Part shown: positions 3,201 to 57,709 of the stretch, one piece after another | How the letters are laid out: each line of letters begins with the position of its first letter | How positions within the stretch are numbered: position 1 is the first letter of the stretch | Virus record (IMG/VR): IMGVR_UViG_3300025525_000003 | Location: 1 to 57,744 of that record | DNA length: 57,744 nt | From: a virus | Direction: 5' to 3' (one strand) | The notes under the pieces: generated by a model | What the model was told of the DNA's origin: nothing | The model's input: only the letters and a program-made list of their open reading frames with translations | Database searches by the model: none | Translations under genes and position numbers: made by a program

Positions 3201-6200
3201 AAGCCCGTTCTTCTTCCATGACGAAGACGCCCATTTCTCAATAACCGGAGTGGTCTGCAACGCCTCCTTCACCTTTTCGCTCTGCTCAGACAGACGCTTG
3301 TCCCAATCGAGATATTCATCCTCTTTCGGTGCAAGCTCGACTTCATAAATTCGCCCGGTTCCAAATTTCCAGCCATCCGCTTCCAGAACCGGCTTGAAGA
3401 CTCTACGCACTTCGCTGGGTGTCCAATGCAGTCCGCTGTAGGTAGTCGTTCCACGATGGTACGGATCGCGCTTGGTGGCGTTCTTGTCGACATACCGCTC
3501 GACGGTGACATAGCCATTCTGCGCATCGTAGGAGAGCACCTTGTCGAACGAGCCACCCATGGTCTGCACCACGCGGCCAGGCTTGTAATACTCGGCAAGA
3601 ATCTCTTCGCCTCTCAGCGTTTTCCCGTCCTTCGATATGGAAAGCGTTCTGATCTCCGTTTGCCTGTCAGATAGTTTTTCCTTGTACCACTTGGCAACCT
3701 CCTGACGACCAGAGAAGTAGAGCCCCCATCCGTAGGCCTGGGCACCCTCTCCGCTTCCGATGTGTTCTGTCGAGAATTCTTCGAAGTCGTGCGGCCCACC
3801 ATGGAATGCACGATGATAGACTGGCGCCAATTGTCCGGACTCGCCAAACTGTCTGCCTTCCTCGACGAACGTCCGGGCGTCGGCCAGCACGGCAAGAACT
3901 TCGGCGTCGGTCTTTGCTTCCAGCCAGTCTGCCACCTGGTCGAAGCCGTTGGCGCGCAGCCATTCCTGCACCCAGGCGATCAGCTTCTTCAAGCCGGTGA
4001 TTTTCTCGCCGCTGCCGGCAATATCGGCCAGGGCTTCCTCGATCGACAGGAAGTGTGCATCCTTCGCCGCCATCTTGTGCTCTTTGATGACGTCCTGGTT
4101 TTCCCGGATCCACTTGGCGGCGCGCGACCGCACCTGCTTGTTCGCCGACCACAGGCGCTGCAGGACGGGTTCGAGTTCCTTGCCGAAGAATCCGCGCAGG
4201 CCGTAGTGCCCCAGGCCTTCGTGGAAGACCGTGAATTGGACGCGCTGCGGGTCGTTGAGATTGCCGGCAACCAGCCATATCTGGCCACGCCAGTAGGCGC
4301 CCTCAACGTCGGCGGGTGCCGGGAAAGGAAGATCGGCTACGGATTCAACTACAGAGATTCGTGGGGCGTTGCGCCAGTTCTCGCGGAGCCGCGAGACGAC
4401 TTCCTCTACTTCACCGGCAGATAGCGCGCCACGTTCTCCGCGACTGTAGAGGCGACCCTGAAGTGTGGGGCCGGCTGCATCGCCCTGCTGCTCAACCAAC
4501 TTGCCAAGAAGTGCGCGCCATTCGGCGCCATCAACCTTGCCCGATAGGACGGTGCCTGCCAGAGCACTTCTTTCCAGCGTAGTGCGCCCCGCGTGCGCCG
4601 CTCGCGCTCCGGCCCGTCTGGATAGAGCGACGAAATCACTGCCCGAATATTCTCGTCCAGTGCTGGCGTCGCGGAATTGTCCTGAATCGAAGTCATAGTA
4701 GATGTTCTTGATGCCGGGCAAGTGGTGCTTAACCGCATTATAGGATGCTTCCAGCATCTGATTCAAGTTGAACGCGGTGTCGCCGGTCTTCCACTGCATG
4801 CCAGGCCAGTAGAAAGGCTCGCCTCTGCGCTTGCCGTCTACCCTCTGCAACTGGTCTTCATGGGGTGCCAGAAAGTCAGTCGAGCCGAACTTCAGCGCCA
4901 GCGAGATCATGTTCTCCGTGCGCCGGTAGATGGCGGGATTCGATACCCCGCCAGGATCGGCCACGAACACATAGCCGTTGTTGTGCGCCCAATTGCCGAC
5001 CAAGGCATACAGAGCCGAACCGCCGGAGCGGCCCTCTTCCAGAAGGGCGGCATTCAGCCAGACTTCCTTCTTTACCTCGTCCGTCGTCACCGTGGCGACA
5101 GTGCCGTTCTCCATCACCACATTCCAGTAGTGATTGCGGTCGCTGTAGGCGGACGTGCCCATGTCGTCGACGTACATGGTCGGATCGACCTCAGCGGCGA
5201 TCTCGGCCATGCCGATTGCCTCTGACTTCGGGTACTTGAAGATGCCGTCCTGATCAGTCAGCAGTGTAAAGAGCGTCGTGACCTTGGTGTCTTCGCCGGT
5301 CAGTGTGCGGGAGAGTCTTGCCTTCCCAGTTCTGTCCAGCCAGGCCTCGCCCATTTCGTTGAAATACAGCGCGCCCGCCGCCCGGTAATCCACGGGCATG
5401 GGGTGCGAGTATTGACTGATCTCGCTGATATTGGTCGGACTTTTGACGACAGGCGACGGCAATCGGCGCCGCGCCATAAACCTTAATCCGTTCGCTTCGG
5501 CGAATCCGGTAAAACTCTGAGGTACGCGGACGCCTTTCGGGCCGGTAGCGATGGCTTCTCCTGTTTCGGTGACGCGGAGGTGGACGCCGGCTTCGGGTTT
5601 TTCCAAACCAGCCGCTTGACGGCGTAGATCGGCAAGTCTCTCCGCGTCGATAGTGGTGCGCTGCTCTCCGGTTTCGGGTAGGAATCCATCGCTTTCATTA
5701 TAGGCAGCACGACTGAACAGCGCCACGCCTTTGTCGGTTTCCTTTGTCTCTACCGTCTTGAAGAAATTGTCAAAGGCCGATCGGATTTCCGGCACTTCGG
5801 CAGCGACAGGATAGGGATAAGATCCTTCCTTTTTCATGCCCAACGCGGCAGCAGCGTTCCAGTAGTCCTCTGAGACGATGTTGGCAAGATAGTCGTTCGA
5901 TGCGCCCTGATCCTGCAGCTTTGCGACGACGTAACTCTCGAAGGCACGCGCCGCCATCTCGAGGCCGGTACTCCAGTACGGCTTCGCCCGCGTCTGATCG
6001 AGTATCTGCGCGCGAGCCTTCAGCGCCGTGCCGTTGATGGCACGCATGGCCAGCCTGAAAGCGGCAACCATTTCCGGCCTGACGCCTTCGCCTGCCGCCT
6101 GTGTTTCTGTCAAGTAGCCGCTCTTTGCGCCACCCATTCTCGAAAAATAGTTATCGACGGCATGGAACCACTCGTGAGCTAGTGAGCCTACACCGCGTTT

Positions 6201-12806: not shown

Positions 12807-13894
12807 CGCTCGAAGCTCGACAAGGGGGGTCGAGCTCCAGTATTGCCGGATTGACTTGGTGTCCCGCTATTCCAGACCTGTCCGGCAAGTCCTTGAGCCT
12901 TGCCAACCGGGTTTTTCTCGAGCGGATCGCCGATCAGTTTGCCGACCAGCGTACCGGCCAGCTTTCTGGCTTCCGGCCCCCTGATGGGACTGCCTTTCTC
13001 GTCCGTGGCCGTCTTGACCGTGCCGTCGCGCATAACCAGTATCAGTTCGCCGCGCTCATTGATCTTGGTCGATTGAACACGATTGCCAGTCGATCCGCCG
13101 CCACCGCCACTTGACCGCACCGGCCGCGCCGGCAGGTTCGGAATCTGCACCGGCTCGCCTTCTTCGGTAATGCCGACGCCGCGCATGGAGTCGTACCAGC
13201 GAATCTGCTTGTTCGGCGTGCCCATGCTCTTGGCAATGTCTTCCGGATTGCCGCCGCCCAGCACGGATTTGAAGGCTGCCTGCGCCTGACTGCCTTTCAG
13301 TCCAAGCTGATGCACGACCTGCGCCGCCCCGATGATCTTGGCCATTTGCCGGCGATTGCTGGCGATCTCCGGCGGCAACTCGATGCCGCGCTGGCGACCC
13401 CAATTCAGCGCCATCTGCACATCCGCCTCTGTCTTGGCGCTCCCCAGCATAGAGACGAACTTGTCGTCCATGGCGTCTGCAGCCTTCCGGTCTTCCTGCG
13501 CCAGACGAAAGGCCTCTGTGCCGGCCCCGCCTTCGACAAGCGTTCTGACTGCGCTGCCATTGCGCATCCGCGGAGAAGCGGGTGCCGCCGGAACCGCAGC
13601 TTGAGGAGGCGACGCAGGAGAAGGCGTCTGCTGCGGACCGGCGACAACCTGTGAGATCGGACTGGCCGGCGGCTGGTCTGCAGGCACCTGAATCTGCCCC
13701 GGTTGCTGCGCCACCACGCCAGAAATAGCGGGCTGGTCGTACATGCCCATGGCGGCCTGCCCGAGCGCCTTGTTCTTGACCTGCTCCTGCCTGCGCTGAT
13801 CACGGCGGTAATCGCGCTCCTCGCGCTGGTAGGCCGCATTCTCCCCGGCCTGCAGGGCGGCAATTGCCGGATTGACGGTGATGTAGTTAGGCAT
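12803..13894 (-). CDS. candidate internal virion / ejection protein
   Basis: This 363-residue protein has no enzymatic motif that I recognise. The N-terminus is a charged helix rich in Arg, Glu and Gln (residues 15-45). A Pro/Ala/Gln-rich linker follows (about 55-110), then a helical middle and a Gly/Ser-rich linker (about 265-275) before a basic C-terminus. It lies between the short glycine-rich protein at 13897 and the polyvalent protein, the position where podophages keep their DNA-ejection proteins. Its stop overlaps the next start by ATGA, so the two are probably co-translated. The ejection role is inferred from position and composition only. Confidence 0.55.
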   Translation of the reverse strand: MPNYITVNPAIAALQAGENAAYQREERDYRRDQRRQEQVKNKALGQAAMGMYDQPAISGVVAQQPGQIQVPADQPPASPISQVVAGPQQTPSPASPPQAAVPAAPASPRMRNGSAVRTLVEGGAGTEAFRLAQEDRKAADAMDDKFVSMLGSAKTEADVQMALNWGRQRGIELPPEIASNRRQMAKIIGAAQVVHQLGLKGSQAQAAFKSVLGGGNPEDIAKSMGTPNKQIRWYDSMRGVGITEEGEPVQIPNLPARPVRSSGGGGGSTGNRVQSTKINERGELILVMRDGTVKTATDEKGSPIRGPEARKLAGTLVGKLIGDPLEKNPVGKAQGLAGQVWNSGTPSQSGNTGARPPLSSFER

Positions 13895-49412: not shown

Positions 49413-50402
49413 ATGAACATGCCAGAAGTGAAAAACCCGGTGGTCGGTTTCAGCGGCTTCCTCGAGAAATTCAAACCGCAACTCGCGCTGGCTCTGCCCT
49501 CGCACATGAACGCGAACCGCATGGCCAGGCTGGCGCTGACCGCATTCAGCTCTAGCGCGCAGTTGCAGAAATGCGACGCCAAGAGCATCGCCGCTTCGCT
49601 CATGACAGCCGGCCAGTTGGGCCTGGAGCCCGGCGTCAATGGCGCCGGCTTCCTGGTGCCTTACGGGACAACCTGCACCTTCGTTCCGGGCTGGAAAGGC
49701 TTGGTCGATCTGGTTGCGCGCAGTGGTCGCGGTACTGTCTTTACTGGCGTCATTTTCCGCGATCAGGAATTCACCTTTACCGACGGCGCTCGCCGCGATC
49801 TGGTGATCCACAACGAGACGGACATGGAAGAAGCCGAGGACATTACTCATGCCTACGCTATCGGTTGGGTGCGTGACGCCACATTGCCGATCATCGAACT
49901 GTGGCGCGTCAGCAAGATCAAGCGCCACCGCGACAAATACAACAAGGTAGGTCAGAAGCATTACTCCTACCGCGATTGGGAAATGTACTGCCGCAAGGTT
50001 CCGCTCCTGCAGGTTCTGAAATACATGCCTTGCTCGGTAGAGGTCGCCAACGCCATCGACATCAGCAACGCCGCCGAGAGGGGCCACACCGCCAACATCA
50101 TCGAGGGGGTCGTCATCGACACGGATGAAAGTGAGGCGGATGGCCGGCAGCAGGAGCGGGAAACCTACAAAGACGAGGACTTCAAAAAGAACCTGCCTGA
50201 CTGGAAAAAGCTGATCTCAGGCGGGAAGAAAACACCAGAACAAGTCATAGCCACGGTGCAAAACAAGCACCCGCTCACAGAAGAGCAGAAGGCAGCAATC
50301 ATGGCCATGGGTGCTGCGCCAAGCCCTGGCGGCGATGGCGTGATGACGGATGAGGAAGTAGCCGCCATCAAAGCCAGAGAAATGGCCGAAGCCGGCCAGT
50401 AA
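49413..50402 (+). CDS. recT: RecT-family single-strand annealing protein
   Basis: This is a 329-residue annealing recombinase. The RecT core is clear: ALTAFSSSAQLQKCDAKSIA (about 42-61), LMTAGQLGLEPGVNGAGFLV (about 63-82), TFVPGWKGLVDLVARSG (about 89-105), then the conserved RDWEMYCRKVPLLQVLKYMP (about 188-207). The tail is acidic and flexible. AAGGAG stands before the ATG. With the exonuclease downstream it forms a phage recombination pair. Confidence 0.9.
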   Translation: MNMPEVKNPVVGFSGFLEKFKPQLALALPSHMNANRMARLALTAFSSSAQLQKCDAKSIAASLMTAGQLGLEPGVNGAGFLVPYGTTCTFVPGWKGLVDLVARSGRGTVFTGVIFRDQEFTFTDGARRDLVIHNETDMEEAEDITHAYAIGWVRDATLPIIELWRVSKIKRHRDKYNKVGQKHYSYRDWEMYCRKVPLLQVLKYMPCSVEVANAIDISNAAERGHTANIIEGVVIDTDESEADGRQQERETYKDEDFKKNLPDWKKLISGGKKTPEQVIATVQNKHPLTEEQKAAIMAMGAAPSPGGDGVMTDEEVAAIKAREMAEAGQ

Positions 50403-50410
50403 CCATCAAT

Positions 50411-50472
50411 GGGGCGGCGAACGGCGATCTCGTCCATCGCTGCGAACCGGTAGCGTTCCACGGCGCCGCCCC
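50411..50472 (+). promoter_or_regulatory. stem between recT and exonuclease
   Basis: GGGGCGGCG (50411-50419) and CGCCGCCCC (50464-50472) are exact reverse complements in the 91-base gap, with a 44-base loop. It ends 13 bases before the ribosome site of the exonuclease. It could set the ratio of the two proteins. Confidence 0.45.
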
Positions 50473-50493
50473 TCCAAACACAAGGAGAGAGTA

Positions 50494-52110
50494 ATGCGCG
50501 AAATCCACGAACTCGATCAGGGCAGCGAAGCCTGGCACGCCCACCGAGCCAAGTACCTCAACGCATCGGAAGCCGCCGCCATGCTCGGCATCAGCCAGTA
50601 CCAGACCCGCGGCGACCTGTTGCGCCAGAAGGCGACCGGCTGGGTGCCTGAGGTCGACGCTGCCACGCAGCGCCGCTTCGACGACGGCCATGCGGCCGAA
50701 GCCGCCGCCCGACCGATTGCCGAAGGCATCGTCGGCGCCGACCTGTATCCGATCACGGCAACGCTGTATGTCGATGGCCTGCCCCTGTCAGCCAGCTACG
50801 ACGGCGCGACGATGGAAGAAGACATCATCTTCGAGCACAAGCTGGCCAACAAGGAACTGAAAGCCAGCCTCGCCGAGGGCATCATTCCCAACCAGTACCT
50901 GCCGCAACTGGAACAGCAACTGCTGATCCTCGGGGCAGAGAAATGCCTGTTCATGGCGTCGAACGGCGATGGCCAGTTGCACGCATGGTATGAGTCCGAC
51001 CCAGCCATGCGCGCCACCCTGATCGCCGGCTGGAAGCAGTTCGCGGAAGACCTGGCCAACTACGCGCCGCCCGAGGTCATCCCCGCCGCCGTCGCCGCGC
51101 CGCAGGCGTCCCTGCCGGCCGTCGCCGTCACCGTGACCGGCAGCATCGCCATCCGCGACAACCTGACCGTCTTTGGCGATGCCCTCACGACCTACGTCGA
51201 GCGGATCAACAGGAAGCCGGAAACCGATCAGGATTTCGCCGATCTGGAGGCGACCGCCAAGGCGCTCAAGACCGCCGAGGAAGCGCTTGACGCCGCCGAG
51301 AACAACGCCCTGGCGCAGACCGGCGACCTCGATGCCTTGCGCCGCACCATCAGCCAGTACCGAGATCTCGCGCGCCAGAACCGCCTGATGGTCGAAAAGC
51401 TGGTCAAGGCCGAGAAGGAGAACCGGCGCAACGCGATCATGCAGGGCGGAGTCACGGCGCTGCGCGCGCACGTCGACGCGCTGAACAAGCGGCTGGGCAA
51501 ACCCTACATGCCCGACACGCAATGGGCCAACTTCCCGGCGGCCATGAAGGGACTCAAGACCATGGCAAGCCTGCAGAACGCCGTGGACACCGAACTTGCC
51601 CAAGCCAAGATCAATTCCAGCGCCTGCGCTGATCGGATTGAGATCAACCTCAAGGGCTTGAGCGCGTTCTGCGGCGACACGGACTACGGTTTCCTGTTCC
51701 GCGATCTTCCCTCTCTGGTGCTGAAAGCGCCGGACGACTTCGCCGCAGCCGTGACGCTGCGCATCAACGAGCACAAGGTCGCCGAGGAAAAGCGCCTCGA
51801 AGCGGAGCGCGCCAAAATCCGCGCCGAGGAAGAGGCCAAGGCGGCAGCCAAACAGAATACTCAACCGGAGCCAGCTAAAACACCGGCGAACGAGGGAACT
51901 GGGGCTACTCCTGCTGGTGGCGCAGCAAAACCCCAAATGGTGCAAGCGGCTGCGACAGTAAGGCTGCCCACGGGGCGGCCGACGGATGACGAGATCATCG
52001 CCGCCGTCGCCCTTGCCTTCCGCGTCCATGAGAGCAAGGCAATCGAGTGGCTGCTTGACGTCGACCTGAACGCGGCATCCGATCGCATGGTGAAGGAGTT
52101 TGCAGCATGA
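50494..52110 (+). CDS. YqaJ-type recombination exonuclease with C-terminal extension
   Basis: This is a 538-residue protein. Residues 1-195 are the YqaJ/lambda-exonuclease-like nuclease: RAKYLNASEAAAMLGISQYQ (about 18-37), GHAAEAAARPIAEGI (about 66-80), then the catalytic Asp in SASYDGATMEED (about 98-109) and Glu-x-Lys in FEHKLAN (about 112-118). Residues 215-450 are long helices not present in typical 200-300-residue relatives, and the end has a Lys/Ala/Pro-rich linker and a small domain. AAGGAG precedes the ATG. It would trim 5' ends for RecT. Confidence 0.85.
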   Translation: MREIHELDQGSEAWHAHRAKYLNASEAAAMLGISQYQTRGDLLRQKATGWVPEVDAATQRRFDDGHAAEAAARPIAEGIVGADLYPITATLYVDGLPLSASYDGATMEEDIIFEHKLANKELKASLAEGIIPNQYLPQLEQQLLILGAEKCLFMASNGDGQLHAWYESDPAMRATLIAGWKQFAEDLANYAPPEVIPAAVAAPQASLPAVAVTVTGSIAIRDNLTVFGDALTTYVERINRKPETDQDFADLEATAKALKTAEEALDAAENNALAQTGDLDALRRTISQYRDLARQNRLMVEKLVKAEKENRRNAIMQGGVTALRAHVDALNKRLGKPYMPDTQWANFPAAMKGLKTMASLQNAVDTELAQAKINSSACADRIEINLKGLSAFCGDTDYGFLFRDLPSLVLKAPDDFAAAVTLRINEHKVAEEKRLEAERAKIRAEEEAKAAAKQNTQPEPAKTPANEGTGATPAGGAAKPQMVQAAATVRLPTGRPTDDEIIAAVALAFRVHESKAIEWLLDVDLNAASDRMVKEFAA

Positions 52111-54330: not shown

Positions 54331-54515
54331 CCCACCTGGAGCGCATCGAGAGAATCGAGAACGAAATCCGCGGCGTCGTCTCGCTCTACGGCATCACGTC
54401 CTGGGAGCGCGAATTCCTGAACAACGGAAAGACACGCCAGTTCATGACGGAAAAGCAGTTGGACATCCTTGCCGGGATCGAGAAGAAGGTATTCGGTGGT
54501 AACAAGGATGACTGA
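54327..54515 (+). CDS. small helical protein
   Basis: This 62-residue protein starts MTHLERIERIENEIRGVVSL, overlapping the previous stop by ATGA. It is helical and charged. No known family. It is the last gene before the cassette-like region. Confidence 0.5.
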   Translation: MTHLERIERIENEIRGVVSLYGITSWEREFLNNGKTRQFMTEKQLDILAGIEKKVFGGNKDD

Positions 54516-54534
54516 TCGCGCATGGAGAAAAAGC

Positions 54535-54777
54535 ATGAGCAAACAACAGTATCGGCACAGAGAAGACTGCGCGATTGTGCGTGACCATCGTGATTATCCG
54601 GCAAGTGCGGTGCTGATGGACTGCGACGGCGATGTTGTCCATCGGTTTGACGAGGACTGGACGGACGACCAAATTTTTGCGGCGCTGGCCTTCGCAAACA
54701 AGGCGTATGCGACTGGTATAGAGGTAGGGCGGATGGAAAAGGCATATCAGATTCGGGCGGCGCTGAATGTGGCCTAA
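54535..54777 (+). CDS. 80-aa protein ending in attC-like box
   Basis: This 80-residue protein starts MSKQQYRHREDCAIVRDHRD at 54535, chosen for the GGAG about 10 bases before. It has an acidic, aromatic middle (VVHRFDEDWTDDQIFAALAF). Its stop TAA lies within the attC-like R'' box GCCTAAC (54772-54778), as often seen in integron cassettes. No reverse-complement partner of that box was found upstream, so the left border of its cassette, if any, is lost. Confidence 0.55.
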   Translation: MSKQQYRHREDCAIVRDHRDYPASAVLMDCDGDVVHRFDEDWTDDQIFAALAFANKAYATGIEVGRMEKAYQIRAALNVA

Positions 54778-54841
54778 CGCTTGAATTCAGGGGCGCGACG
54801 CAGCCTTATCGCGGCGCGTCCCTTCGCACGACGGGTTGTGC
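54772..54841 (+). repeat. attC-like site 1
   Basis: GCCTAAC (54772-54778) and GTTGTGC (54835-54841) frame a 70-base hairpin. The inner arms GGGCGCGACGC and GCGGCGCGTCCC pair at 10 of 11 places with one extra T on the right arm. Size, box shape and the bulged base resemble integron attC sites. The bulge is on the arm opposite to classical attC sites, and GTTGTGC departs from GTTRRRY at one base, so the call is tentative. Confidence 0.5.
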
Positions 54842-54891
54842 GGCAACGGCTCAGAAGTCGGCGCTGGTGACACGGCGATGAAAGGAAAGCA

Positions 54892-55662
54892 GTGAATGAG
54901 TTGGCTCTTTTCGCGGGCGCTGGTGGCGGAATACTCGGCGGCAAGCTGCTCGGGTGGAGAACCGTCTGCGCCGTTGAGCGTGATGCCTACGCCGCACAAG
55001 TTCTGGCACAGCGGCAAAACGATGGATGCCTTGAGCCTTTCCCGATTTGGTCTGACGTGTGCAGTTTTGACGGAAGACCTTGGGCGGGAATTGTTGACGT
55101 TGTTTCTGGCGGCTTCCCTTGCCAAGACATCAGCAGCGCAGGGAAAGGAGAAGGACTCGACGGCGAACGCTCCGGCCTTTGGCGAGAAATGGCCCGGATT
55201 GTTGGCGAGGTTCGACCGAGATTCGTTTTTGTGGAGAACTCCCCAATGCTCACTCTTCGAGGACTCGGAACCGTGCTTGGAGACTTGGCCTCGCTGGGGT
55301 TTGATGCGCGCTGGGGAGTGCTGGGAGCTTCCGCCTTTGGTGCGCCACACAGAAGAGAGCGAATCTGGATTGCTGCCTACGCTGACCGTGATTTCGTGCG
55401 AGCACCCTGGGCGCTTCAAGATCAAGCCAGGGCAGCAGACGTGCATCTCGGCGGAACTGGCGAAGCGGGACGGGTGGAAAGTTGGTGGAAAGTACAGCCC
55501 GAGCCATGCAGCGTGGTTCATGGGGTGGCCGGAGTGGTGGACGAGCTTAGGCCGCTCGGTAACGGACAGGTTCCATGCGTGGCAGCAAGCGCATGGCGGA
55601 TTTTGACGCACAACGTAGAAGGTGAGCGGGGGCGCGCTTGCGCGACCTCCGCTCGACCGTAG
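54892..55662 (+). CDS. C5-cytosine DNA methyltransferase
   Basis: This is a 256-residue m5C methyltransferase, small for the family. Motif I is ALFAGAGGGILGG (5-17), motif IV GGFPCQDIS with Cys77, motif VI FVFVENS, motif VIII RRERIWI, and motif X LGNGQVPCVAASAWRIL. The target-recognition part between VIII and X is only about 60 residues. It would protect phage DNA from restriction. It starts at GTG 54892, four bases before an ATG that opens a second, overlapping frame, and shares its ribosome site AAAGGAAAG. The end runs through attC-like site 2. Confidence 0.85.
   Translation: MNELALFAGAGGGILGGKLLGWRTVCAVERDAYAAQVLAQRQNDGCLEPFPIWSDVCSFDGRPWAGIVDVVSGGFPCQDISSAGKGEGLDGERSGLWREMARIVGEVRPRFVFVENSPMLTLRGLGTVLGDLASLGFDARWGVLGASAFGAPHRRERIWIAAYADRDFVRAPWALQDQARAADVHLGGTGEAGRVESWWKVQPEPCSVVHGVAGVVDELRPLGNGQVPCVAASAWRILTHNVEGERGRACATSARP
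54896..55606 (+). CDS. 236-aa overlapping frame, phage-family-like
   Basis: This frame lies almost entirely inside the methyltransferase gene, offset by one base. It starts MSWLFSRALVAEYSAASCSG, has DSFLWRTPQCSLFEDSEPCL (about 110-129), TWPRWGLMRAGE and SGLLPTLTV, and ends AAWFMGWPEWWTSLGRSVTD (about 205-224). I remember this order, including the Trp/Pro end, from free-standing phage proteins, though I cannot check it here. Its stop TGA (55604-55606) stands one base before the attC-like R'' box, the usual cassette place. It may be a real gene or a shadow kept by methyltransferase constraint. Confidence 0.5.
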   Translation: MSWLFSRALVAEYSAASCSGGEPSAPLSVMPTPHKFWHSGKTMDALSLSRFGLTCAVLTEDLGRELLTLFLAASLAKTSAAQGKEKDSTANAPAFGEKWPGLLARFDRDSFLWRTPQCSLFEDSEPCLETWPRWGLMRAGECWELPPLVRHTEESESGLLPTLTVISCEHPGRFKIKPGQQTCISAELAKRDGWKVGGKYSPSHAAWFMGWPEWWTSLGRSVTDRFHAWQQAHGGF

Positions 55663-55670
55663 TGTTCGGC
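55608..55670 (+). repeat. attC-like site 2
   Basis: GCACAAC (55608-55614) and GTTCGGC (55664-55670) frame 63 bases. GGTGAGCGG pairs with CCGCTCGACC leaving one extra G, with an inner GCGC/GCGC stem. GCACAAC is the exact reverse complement of GTTGTGC at 54835, the start of the same putative cassette, as integron rules require. The bulge is on the non-classical arm. Confidence 0.55.
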
Positions 55671-55690
55671 GTATTACGGAGACTGACTTT

Positions 55691-55870
55691 ATGAAGCTGA
55701 TGCAGCACGAAGGCAATTTCAGGCCGATAGCGATAGTGCTTGAGACAGAGGAAGACGCGGCCACATTCTGGGACATGGTACTGAGGATCGAGAAATGCAC
55801 GGACGTTGAGGCCGAGCATGACATGGCTGTGAAAATTTCCAACTGGTTCAGCAATCAGGCGAAGCTGTGA
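55691..55870 (+). CDS. 59-aa cassette-like gene
   Basis: This is a 59-residue acidic protein, MKLMQHEGNFRPIAIVLETE and on to a helical end, from the ATG at 55691 with GGAG before it. It starts 27 bases after GTTCGGC and its TGA stands one base before GCCGAAC. A 10-bp inverted repeat TGTTCGGCGT (55663-55672) and ACGCCGAACA (55870-55879) frames it exactly. Function unknown; it may be a small regulator or antitoxin-like protein. Confidence 0.6.
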   Translation: MKLMQHEGNFRPIAIVLETEEDAATFWDMVLRIEKCTDVEAEHDMAVKISNWFSNQAKL

Positions 55871-55871
55871 C

Positions 55872-55908
55872 GCCGAACATTAAGTAGACCTTCCGTGCAA
55901 GGTAGACC
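55872..55908 (+). repeat. partial attC-like site 3
   Basis: GCCGAAC (55872-55878) is the exact reverse complement of GTTCGGC at 55664. Behind it, ACCTT and AAGGT form a small stem, but no R' box of the GTTRRRY type appears before the next gene. The site looks truncated or decayed, and may mark the right border of the cassette block. Confidence 0.4.
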
Positions 55909-56220
55909 ATGTATCGAGTGACCAAAAAAGCCGCAGCGCAGCGCACCAAGTTGGCGAACATTCGCCGGTCGCGCGACGCCGCCAGAATCGCCGAGCCGGC
56001 ACCGGACTATCCTGCCGTGCTGCCGGATCTGAGGCGGCGCATCACAATCGAAACATTCGACTTCGGCCATGAAATCCACGTCATCGAAATGTTCAGGTCT
56101 GACAGAATTGATTGCTTTCGCGTGGAGGTCGACGGCAAGCCATGGAAGGCGCGGATAGGCTGGTCACAAATCCTCGCCGGGTTGCGTAAGTCCATGCCGA
56201 GGGTGGGGGCGGCAGAATGA
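55909..56220 (+). CDS. basic phage protein
   Basis: This is a 103-residue, Arg-rich protein with a basic N-terminal helix (KKAAAQRTKLANIRRSRDAA) and a C-terminal strand-helix part (IDCFRVEVDGKPWKARIGWS). No known family. It ends by ATGA overlap at the excisionase-like start. It may bind DNA; this is inferred from charge alone. Confidence 0.5.
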   Translation: MYRVTKKAAAQRTKLANIRRSRDAARIAEPAPDYPAVLPDLRRRITIETFDFGHEIHVIEMFRSDRIDCFRVEVDGKPWKARIGWSQILAGLRKSMPRVGAAE

Positions 56221-56468
56221 GCCTCGTCACCCAGATGTTCCTGCTCGACAAGTACGGACCGATTCTGTCTGTCGCCAACTTGGCCGACCTGATGGATCGC
56301 GACGAGCAGACCATCCGCAACCAGATCAGCGCCGGGGCATTCGAGATACCGACGACGCGCAACCGTAGCGGTCGCCGCGTCGCGCACTACCAGGATGCCG
56401 CCGCCTATATCGACAGTCTCAAATCCCCTTCGCCTTCTTCGCCTGCTCAAGCCGTTCGTGCAGCTTGA
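56217..56468 (+). CDS. excisionase-like HTH protein
   Basis: This is an 83-residue protein that starts MSLVTQMFLLDKYGPILSVA and has a helix-turn-helix (LADLMDRDEQTIRNQISAGA) and a basic wing (TTRNRSGRRVAHYQD). The pattern fits AlpA/PrtN-like or recombination-directionality factors. Its last 50 bases overlap the integrase end on the other strand, so the two messages are complementary there. It would favour excision. Confidence 0.65.
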   Translation: MSLVTQMFLLDKYGPILSVANLADLMDRDEQTIRNQISAGAFEIPTTRNRSGRRVAHYQDAAAYIDSLKSPSPSSPAQAVRAA

Positions 56469-57468
56469 TCGGGTCGATGTTGGTGTAGCGCTCCTGAACT
56501 TCCCATTTCCGCGGCCCACCGGCCGCCGTGATCTCCTGCGGGGTCAGTCCGAGCTCGGCCAGTGAACTGGTCGCCTCACGCTTCAAGTCGTGCAGATGCA
56601 GATTCTCGATGCCGCAGGCGTCGCAGGCCCATTTGAAATATTTGCTGACCGTGCCCGGCTTGAACGGAAAGATGCGTGGTTCGCCGTCGCGCCTTGGCTG
56701 GCGCTGGATGATCTCCCAGGCTTCGGCTGGCAGCAACACGAACTCGTCATTGCCTTCCTTTTTTCGCGGATGCTTGCGGTCGCGCACCACCACGCCGCGG
56801 CGCGCCGGATCAAGGTCGCGCCACTCGATGCGGGATACCTCTCCGCGGCGCAGGATGGACTGCCTGGCGACTTCTATGATGTCTTGCATGGGGATGTCGT
56901 ACTCGGGATGATCGCGGAACCAGCGGTAGATGCGTGCCAGTTCGTCGGCCTGTGGGCGCCTGGTGCGTTTCTTCGCCTCGGCGATCAGGCCGTAGTGCTG
57001 CAGGGTCGGCCGTGCCTCACCGACGATGTCCGGCAGGCGCAGGCGCAGCAGGCTGGCCGTGTGCTTGAGGACGGTGCCCAGCTTGGAGACCTCCATGTTG
57101 AGCGCCACAGGACCGCTGCCACCGCGCTTCCGGCCGGTGCCTTCGCGGCGCCGGCCCTGTGCCCAAGCCAGCAACTTGGCCGTGTCGAGCTCTGCCGCCG
57201 AATGGTGCCCAAGCCCATCGGCCAGGTGCGCGAGGATGTAGTGCTCGTTGCTTTTCGGGTTGATCGGCCGGCCCGAGGCGGCGCGGGCCTCGCGGTAAGC
57301 CAGAATGAGATCGGCAATCCTGGCGTTGCCGTGGTCGTTGCCGCCCTCGATCTCAAGCACCCAGCGCGCAGCTGCGGCTTTCGTCGGGAAGGTCTTTGAG
57401 ATAGACTTGCGGCCCGGCTGGCGGATCTGCGCGCGCCAGCGATTGCCGATCTTGAGAATGGATGCCAC
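56419..57468 (-). CDS. int: tyrosine recombinase (prophage integrase)
   Basis: This 349-residue integrase starts at GTG 57468. It has an N-terminal arm-binding unit (about 1-50), a core-binding region (50-160) and the catalytic domain from about 170. Visible are the first Arg in ILRRGEVSRIEW, the Lys in RKHPRKKEG, the box LHLHDLKREATSSLAELGL and the Tyr in ERYTNID. In that box Lys stands where HxxR has Arg, though an Arg follows, and the usual GH further on is GP (GGPRKWEVQERY). It would act at the tRNA-Arg site 170 bases away. Confidence 0.88.
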   Translation of the reverse strand: MASILKIGNRWRAQIRQPGRKSISKTFPTKAAAARWVLEIEGGNDHGNARIADLILAYREARAASGRPINPKSNEHYILAHLADGLGHHSAAELDTAKLLAWAQGRRREGTGRKRGGSGPVALNMEVSKLGTVLKHTASLLRLRLPDIVGEARPTLQHYGLIAEAKKRTRRPQADELARIYRWFRDHPEYDIPMQDIIEVARQSILRRGEVSRIEWRDLDPARRGVVVRDRKHPRKKEGNDEFVLLPAEAWEIIQRQPRRDGEPRIFPFKPGTVSKYFKWACDACGIENLHLHDLKREATSSLAELGLTPQEITAAGGPRKWEVQERYTNIDPIKLHERLEQAKKAKGI

Positions 57469-57634: not shown

Positions 57635-57709
57635 CCCCTCGTAGTTCAATGGATAGAACGGCCGCCTCCTAAGCGGCAAATACAGGTTCGATTCCTGTCG
57701 AGGGGGCCA
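57635..57709 (+). tRNA. tRNA-Arg (CCT)
   Basis: This is a complete cloverleaf: acceptor CCCCTCG paired to CGAGGGG, D-arm GTTCAATGGATAGAAC, anticodon stem GCCGC/GCGGC with loop CTCCTAA (anticodon CCT), T-arm ACAGG/CCTGT, discriminator G and an encoded CCA. It is the probable integration target; its first 14 bases contain the 12-bp repeat shared with the left border. Confidence 0.95.
57637..57648. other. candidate attR core
   Basis: CCTCGTAGTTCA is identical to 116-127 and lies at the 5' side of the tRNA-Arg gene. If it is the crossover, the phage supplies the sequence upstream of the tRNA and the first acceptor bases. The bases just before differ (CTCCTCG left, CCCCTCG right), but both still pair with the 3' acceptor, one with a wobble. 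Confidence 0.5.

Follow-up and report, generated by a model that had tools for sequence, protein, structure and literature searches.

A probable reverse-polarity integron array in the early operon of a temperate phage

The window, as we refer to the whole stretch of DNA analysed (57,744 bases), comes from IMG/VR as a virus record and has the appearance of a temperate phage; the features surrounding the array studied here are collected in Table 1. Following the RecT-like and YqaJ-like genes of the early operon are found, in this order, the array region, an excisionase-like gene, a tyrosine integrase reading leftward, and a tRNA gene. That integrase was discarded as a candidate integron integrase (IntI), its XerA-type match being weak and far under the cut-off and the integron-integrase model TIGR02249 giving no match to it. 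A scan of the whole window with Rfam returned two tRNAs and nothing further, the second of those genes lying within the phage contig at 39310-39383 on the minus strand. The array is bordered on its left by an 80-aa ORF whose TAA stop falls inside a GCCTAAC box; since the GTTAGGC start boxes upstream of that ORF occur only at 13886 and 47761, we do not regard it as a box-delimited cassette.

Table 1. Features of the window in and around the array; the E-values of the attC model are rough, its calibration having been short.
Feature	Position	Strand	Remarks
RecT-like protein and YqaJ-like exonuclease	49413-52110	rightward	Early operon; named from sequence
80-aa ORF	54535-54777	+	Left flank of the array; within ORF-list entry 54469-54777
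attC1	54841-54772	-	70 nt; full-length model match, 38.1 bits, E=7.4e-10; minus-strand boxes R' GTTAGGC, R'' GCACAAC
Mobile unit 1	54778-55613	+	From hairpin through GTTGTGC and the methyltransferase gene to GCACAA; AA|C crossover at each end
C5 cytosine DNA methyltransferase, 256 aa	54892-55662	+	PF00145 E=3.1e-31; phrog_363 E=5.7e-64
attC2	55670-55608	-	63 nt; full-length model match, 38.0 bits, E=7.8e-10; minus-strand boxes R' GTTGTGC, R'' GCCGAAC
Mobile unit 2	55614-55877	+	Hairpin, GTTCGGC, 59-aa gene, GCCGAA; 9-nt matched boxes
59-aa cassette ORF	55691-55870	+	Gene of mobile unit 2
attI-like site	55872-55908	-	First-cassette box (GTTCGGC on minus) continuing into the conserved leader of the 103-aa gene
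103-aa conserved phage gene	55909-56220	+	Occupies the position of intI in IntI phages
Putative excisionase	56217-56468	+	phrog_1300 E=5e-8
Phage tyrosine integrase	56419-57468	-	PF00589
tRNA gene	57635-57706	+	RF00005 E=5.9e-13; likely attachment site

The covariance model of attC that we applied was derived from 33 bacterial attCs, none of them of phage origin, gathered by a short-pattern scan of bacterial genomes; with both strands of the 57.7-kb window it gave exactly two matches, both on the minus strand and opposite to the genes. On the gene strand, the start box GTTGTGCG (54835) pairs across 8 nt with the end box at 55607-55614, and the start box GTTCGGCGT (55664) across 9 nt with 55870-55878, for which matches the probabilities of occurrence by chance at the given positions are 1.2e-3 and 3.1e-4, respectively. 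An earlier sequence-only reading had located these boxes and proposed that the hairpins of 70 and 63 nt were attC sites; the extended matches bore out the location, and the full-length covariance matches (roughly 7e-10 each) the nature of the hairpins, with the model matching on the minus strand. That reading had also foreseen that the hairpins might turn out to be ordinary repeats of the host, in place of which we found integron attC sites of the Betaproteobacteria type; of the three attC-like boundaries that it had counted, only two are attC, no attC-like stem being present after the GCCGAAC at 55872.

In an ordinary integron the cassette gene runs in the direction of the attC. The array of the window departs from that layout, the gene being antisense to the attC and the hairpin lying 5' of the gene. 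It is in the minus strand that the R'' and R' boxes, the two-arm stem, and extra-helical bases on the R''-L'' arm are read, the bulged bases of this hairpin family being situated on the arm that adjoins the gene-strand GTT box; in the attCs of ordinary integrons the extra-helical bases sit on that same R''-L'' arm, and when they are inverted the choice of strand is inverted too and crossover occurs at the R'' box instead (PMC2727003). The two matches are less than 900 bp apart with no intI nearby, as in a CALIN, and the window lacks the TIGR02249 integrase gene of a complete integron: as had been anticipated from the letters, that model matched neither the window nor any of 11 related contigs, of which several are incomplete. 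The position of the hairpins between genes of a single operon, together with the report that attC sites may be weak terminators (PMC9892861), would suit an explanation in which those hairpins were transcription attenuators or terminators of the phage and the box pairs mere decoration; but that explanation is scarcely credible in view of the full-length match to bacterial attC with E~1e-9 (down to 1e-25 in relatives), of the matched boxes flanking each gene, and of the turnover of whole units.

Two frames, 54892-55662 and 54896-55606, overlap over the full length of the latter in the first unit, and both are open in 6/6 phage homologues, each frame also having a match among the PHROG families. 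Because the substitutions are concentrated at the third codon positions of the first frame (707 versus 275 and 189), we assign the gene to that frame and reject the second one, which is without constraint of its own. The stop codon of the methyltransferase therewith falls within attC2, and of the two stops that had been described as standing one base before the box, that of the 59-aa gene (55868-55870) holds, while that at 55604-55606 is out of the methyltransferase frame. The 59-aa ORF had no match in PHROG, nor did an 82-aa reading of the same ORF in Pfam; in viral contigs no relative was confirmed for it or for the 80-aa ORF, and a homologue of the 59-aa gene was recognised by eye in L002 (5824-6008), between the different boxes GTTAGCC and GGCTAAC.

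The extent of the mobile unit could be fixed by comparisons between closely related phages. Around intI, L312 and L313 share 99.9% identity, with L312 having one unit more: where L313 has the junction ...GTGCCCTCC-AACGACAGAG..., L312 has ...GTGCCCTCC-AACGCAGAG...hairpin...GTTATGCGC...gene...GGCGCAT-AACGACAGAG..., that is, an extra unit CCTCC|AAC...GCAT|AAC with the hairpin at its start and the box at its end, while the old hairpin still precedes the downstream gene. A canonical unit, in which the hairpin belongs with the gene upstream of it, was tried and rejected, for an insertion at G|TT would have placed the old hairpin beside the upstream gene, which is not the case in L312. Moreover, L012, a member of the family of the window and lacking an IntI, has units of 421, 387, and 342 bp that recur at 100% identity in L311 and L304, both IntI phages; every one of these shared units spans from AAC-hairpin to box-AAC. 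The L312/L313 difference and the identical units thus define the unit as hairpin-GTT-gene-box, with AA|C as its cut site in the gene strand, and, on comparisons of this type, the hairpin in the window is one that moves with the gene downstream of it. The boundaries in Table 1, hairpin first, accordingly replace those of the sequence-only reading, which had drawn each unit from start box to end box; its argument that the R' bases travel with the cassette was sound as to the logic of the boxes, but it took the strand that recombines, and the limits of the units, the wrong way round.

These boundaries also weigh upon the possibility that the units were ordinary cassettes (gene followed by attC, with a G|TT crossover on the gene strand) carried by chance through a bacterial IntI, as in the published phage CALINs. 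Boxes and hairpins do look alike on the gene strand, stop codons often abut the box, and phage CALINs of ordinary layout exist (PMC9892861; TJE1). Nevertheless, the attC model matches the minus strand only, the natural insertions and the identical shared units are bounded at AA|C with the hairpin first, and the complete arrays of the family have an attC before the first unit and none after the last, all of which renders ordinary cassettes highly improbable.

The reversal extends well beyond the window. Among 14 related loci, 43/43 attC matches are opposite to the genes, with the whole array being on the other strand in L146; and when 79 phage loci were oriented by one cargo protein, 32/32 attC matches were on the minus strand. 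Strand calling by the longest ORF proved too noisy in GC-rich DNA and was abandoned in favour of a codon score, and then of this protein-anchored test. With the codon score, the box-delimited cassettes beside an attC pattern were 58 reversed, 1 ordinary, and 18 undecided in viral sequences versus 8 reversed, 93 ordinary, and 31 undecided in bacterial ones, which difference, for the decided cassettes only, gave a Fisher p of 1.5e-33; that score was trained partly on the same loci, whereas the protein-anchored test and the comparison of shared units are independent of it. Hairpins of identical type thus accompany cassettes whose genes run one way in bacteria and the other way in these phages. 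Longer box repeats, by comparison, did not qualify as a phage trait, the mean being 9.4 nt in phages and bacteria alike. In L175, a 10.4-kb contig of a Betaproteobacteria metagenome-assembled genome (MAG), both attC-adjacent cassettes are reversed, so that phage DNA may here have been binned with a bacterium. The reversal is not universal in phages, since TJE1, one of the phages of PMC9892861, has the ordinary polarity as read by eye.

Although the window has none, integron integrases are encoded by phages carrying such arrays. A full IntI was present in 3/50 other viral contigs with attCs of this kind, and a search with these IntIs brought to light relatives of IntI, adjoining arrays, in about 29 viral contigs. 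The cassette genes are codirectional with intI in 23/23 of the phage contigs having enough upstream sequence, whereas in bacteria they run away from intI in 13/15 loci, one of the two exceptions being a contig of a Thiobacillus MAG that looks like a prophage situated beside gltX and has the same attI as the phages. With respect to the sites themselves, 40/41 attC matches are opposite to intI in the IntI phages (a tally in which the identical L312 and L314 are counted twice) and 23/23 in the bacterial intI loci; this geometry being common to both, only the cassette genes are flipped. The intI-proximal junction AACTTAAATTCNNCGACA, or a sequence one base off, occurs in 14/23 of the phages, preceded by boxes that vary. 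In a tree of 21 IntIs, incomplete in that several true ones were dropped by the frame picker, a single branch with a support of 99/99 splits the 13 phage from the 8 bacterial enzymes, so that most of the phage IntIs sampled are set apart.

The exception in the attC tally is L324, where an attC lies 3' of intI on the same strand (5471-5565) and the phage-type attI is absent; its IntI grouped with the bacterial ones in an earlier, larger tree in which three rows were misread in frame. The Thiobacillus prophage (L302, G076:C56, 4544-6677), for its part, adjoins gltX and combines an IntI, a phage integrase, and the phage-type attI, and a simple scan would class it as a bacterial integron; a Thiobacillus MAG is thus the host of a related IntI prophage.

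In the family of the window the position of intI is occupied in every member by the 103-aa gene, whose product is encoded by some ten further contigs and whose leader is seen in two more (L146 and L150). In most of these relatives the array lies immediately 5' of that gene with its last box fused to the leader, a few contigs being too short leftward to show an array. The leader stands directly after the last box in the loci of the family, as well as in L146 and L150, while the boxes themselves vary; and 3' of GCCGAAC it is conserved in more than 12 related loci, in part because this stretch (55878-55908) contains a ribosome-binding site. The exact coincidence in position with intI throughout the family could mean that the 103-aa protein is a recombination factor replacing intI, but we think this unlikely: 103 aa are too few for a tyrosine recombinase, and Pfam, PHROG, PDB, and viral-model fold searches all ended without a match, so the gene may be a plain phage gene. 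The AlphaFold model (pLDDT 82) predicts a helix and a four-stranded sheet, and neither the bacterial genome contigs nor the phage collection, when searched, yielded the gene.

Seven relatives contain 41 box-delimited units besides the two of the window, almost all consisting of one small plus-strand ORF, and the loci L004-L012 hold other genes between boxes of the same kinds, as would be expected from the cassette nature proposed at the outset. All of the phage sequences are metagenomic contigs, in which array regions can misassemble. L011 and L012 have flanks 99.7% identical on the left and 99.0% on the right and wholly different arrays, of 5 versus 11 units; the common flanks stop at GTTTAAC and restart at AACGTTAAGT. 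Likewise, the IntI phages L310 and L311 are 96.5% alike from AACTTAAATTC, at the attI, onward and 99.96% further left, with only the attI-adjacent units differing. No empty site was found. Such turnover might be attributed to homologous recombination between phages at similar hairpins or flanks, with no site-specific enzyme, inasmuch as the hairpins of different arrays are 70-97% alike and usable as short homologies, and L004 contains one hybrid unit with non-matching boxes; and yet the box pairs are specific to each unit and match over 7-14 nt, the independent exchange points fall within AAC even beside the hairpin-free attI, and IntI genes adjoin the arrays of the viral contigs cited above, which observations make that explanation quite improbable.

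We therefore propose, with a probability that we estimate at about 0.93, that the window contains a two-cassette integron array of reversed polarity in the early operon of a temperate phage, operating as follows. Each unit would have the form [C-hairpin-GTTRRRY-gene-RYYYAA]; an integron integrase would recombine the folded single-stranded plus strand, here the bottom strand of the attC, at AA|C; and the units would be joined to an attI-like site formed by the leader of the 103-aa gene. Since neither the window nor its 11 related contigs yielded an IntI, we infer the recombining enzyme, which the family probably receives in trans from an IntI phage or from the host, many related phages having an IntI and attI of their own. 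This supply in trans, of enzyme and cassettes alike, is supported by the units common to L012 and the IntI phages and by the methyltransferase unit of the window (54789-55614), which is 90.6% identical over 826 nt to 3031-3856 of L312, the unit adjoining the attI-like site of that IntI-encoding phage. The original suggestion that cassettes had entered a prophage early operon through an IntI encoded elsewhere has gained accordingly from the attC matches, from the absence of IntI, and from the unit shared with L312. Of this picture, the sequences themselves show the identity and polarity of the attC sites, where the units end, the turnover of the arrays, and the occurrence of common units in IntI phages; the chemistry of IntI, its provision in trans, transcription of the cassettes with the early operon, the gain against restriction, and selection for expression as the source of the orientation are inferences.

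The orientation of the genes might follow from expression. With the attI at the downstream end of the operon, the phage promoter would read only those cassette genes that are antisense to their attC; a cassette of ordinary polarity at the phage attI would be antisense to the operon, and selection would fill the phages with reversed ones, so that their cassette pool would come to be opposite in gene orientation to that of bacteria. In addition, as a cassette of either pool would be antisense in the operon of the other, the two pools would be kept apart. On this basis we consider it likely, though with less assurance than the reading of the window itself, that temperate phages of Betaproteobacteria-like hosts own a class of integrons with a distinct IntI lineage, an attI consisting of the junction AACTTAAATTCNNCGACA or of the 103-aa gene's leader, and a cassette pool of their own, gene-inverted and separate from the bacterial one, with the branch of the window having lost or never possessed intI and using an IntI in trans.

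Clusters of attC without IntI, and a few integrons, are known from phage genomes, with methyltransferases among the cargo (Qi et al., 2023, PMC9892861), and 5/6 of the phage attCs tested in that work recombined with IntI1/attI1. The window resembles those CALINs in being an IntI-less attC cluster with methyltransferase cargo in a phage, and differs from them in the reversed layout of its family, theirs being ordinary or having divergent sites; a conserved phage attI, a reversed polarity, and exchange between near-identical phages were not reported for them. The sedentary chromosomal integrons of Betaproteobacteria (Thiobacillus, Sulfuritalea, Gallionella, and others) have near-identical attC hairpins and the same polarity of attC versus intI, but their cassette genes point away from attI and intI, whereas those of the phages point toward them. 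In spirochaetes (Treponema and others) a reverse-oriented intI has been noted (PMC9668308), and the direction between intI and array is altered as in the phages; there, however, it is intI that is flipped, while in the phage integrons intI, attI, and the attC geometry are as usual and the cassette genes are flipped. Searches of the literature, outside of which were preprints and most subscription journals, turned up neither cassettes of reversed polarity nor an attI of the phage type, and a phage integron of this layout appears not to have been described before. If the proposal is true, integrons would be a working gene-capture device of phages, beyond stray passengers; the inverted gene orientation would provide a simple rule that parts the phage and bacterial pools and marks phage cassettes in metagenomes; and the reversed arrays would constitute natural attC substrates of inverted polarity for tests of the strand choice of IntI.

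As to the cargo, Pfam searches with 20 cassette ORFs identified C5, N6/N4, and MT-A70 methyltransferases, Mom, an RNA ligase, and a GNAT acetyltransferase, with about half of the 20 being without a match and a Dam-like protein scoring just below the cut-off. DNA methyltransferases and Mom make up much of the cargo. This DNA-modification theme, as judged from the names of the families, suggests evasion of restriction, and the methyltransferases, Dam-like protein included, together with Mom fit the earlier guess of defence or counter-defence genes. Phages might in this manner trade DNA-modifying enzymes and so evade restriction; if so, they would stock and swap such genes cassette by cassette, which capacity would bear on their keeping pace with the restriction systems of the host. 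One cargo protein, of 185 aa (MTVAVLFARAD...; L016-L094) and with no match in Pfam, is widespread in phage contigs, for the most part with no attC close by, and is related to proteins of Microviridae records and of a small (11-kb) Xanthomonas phage.
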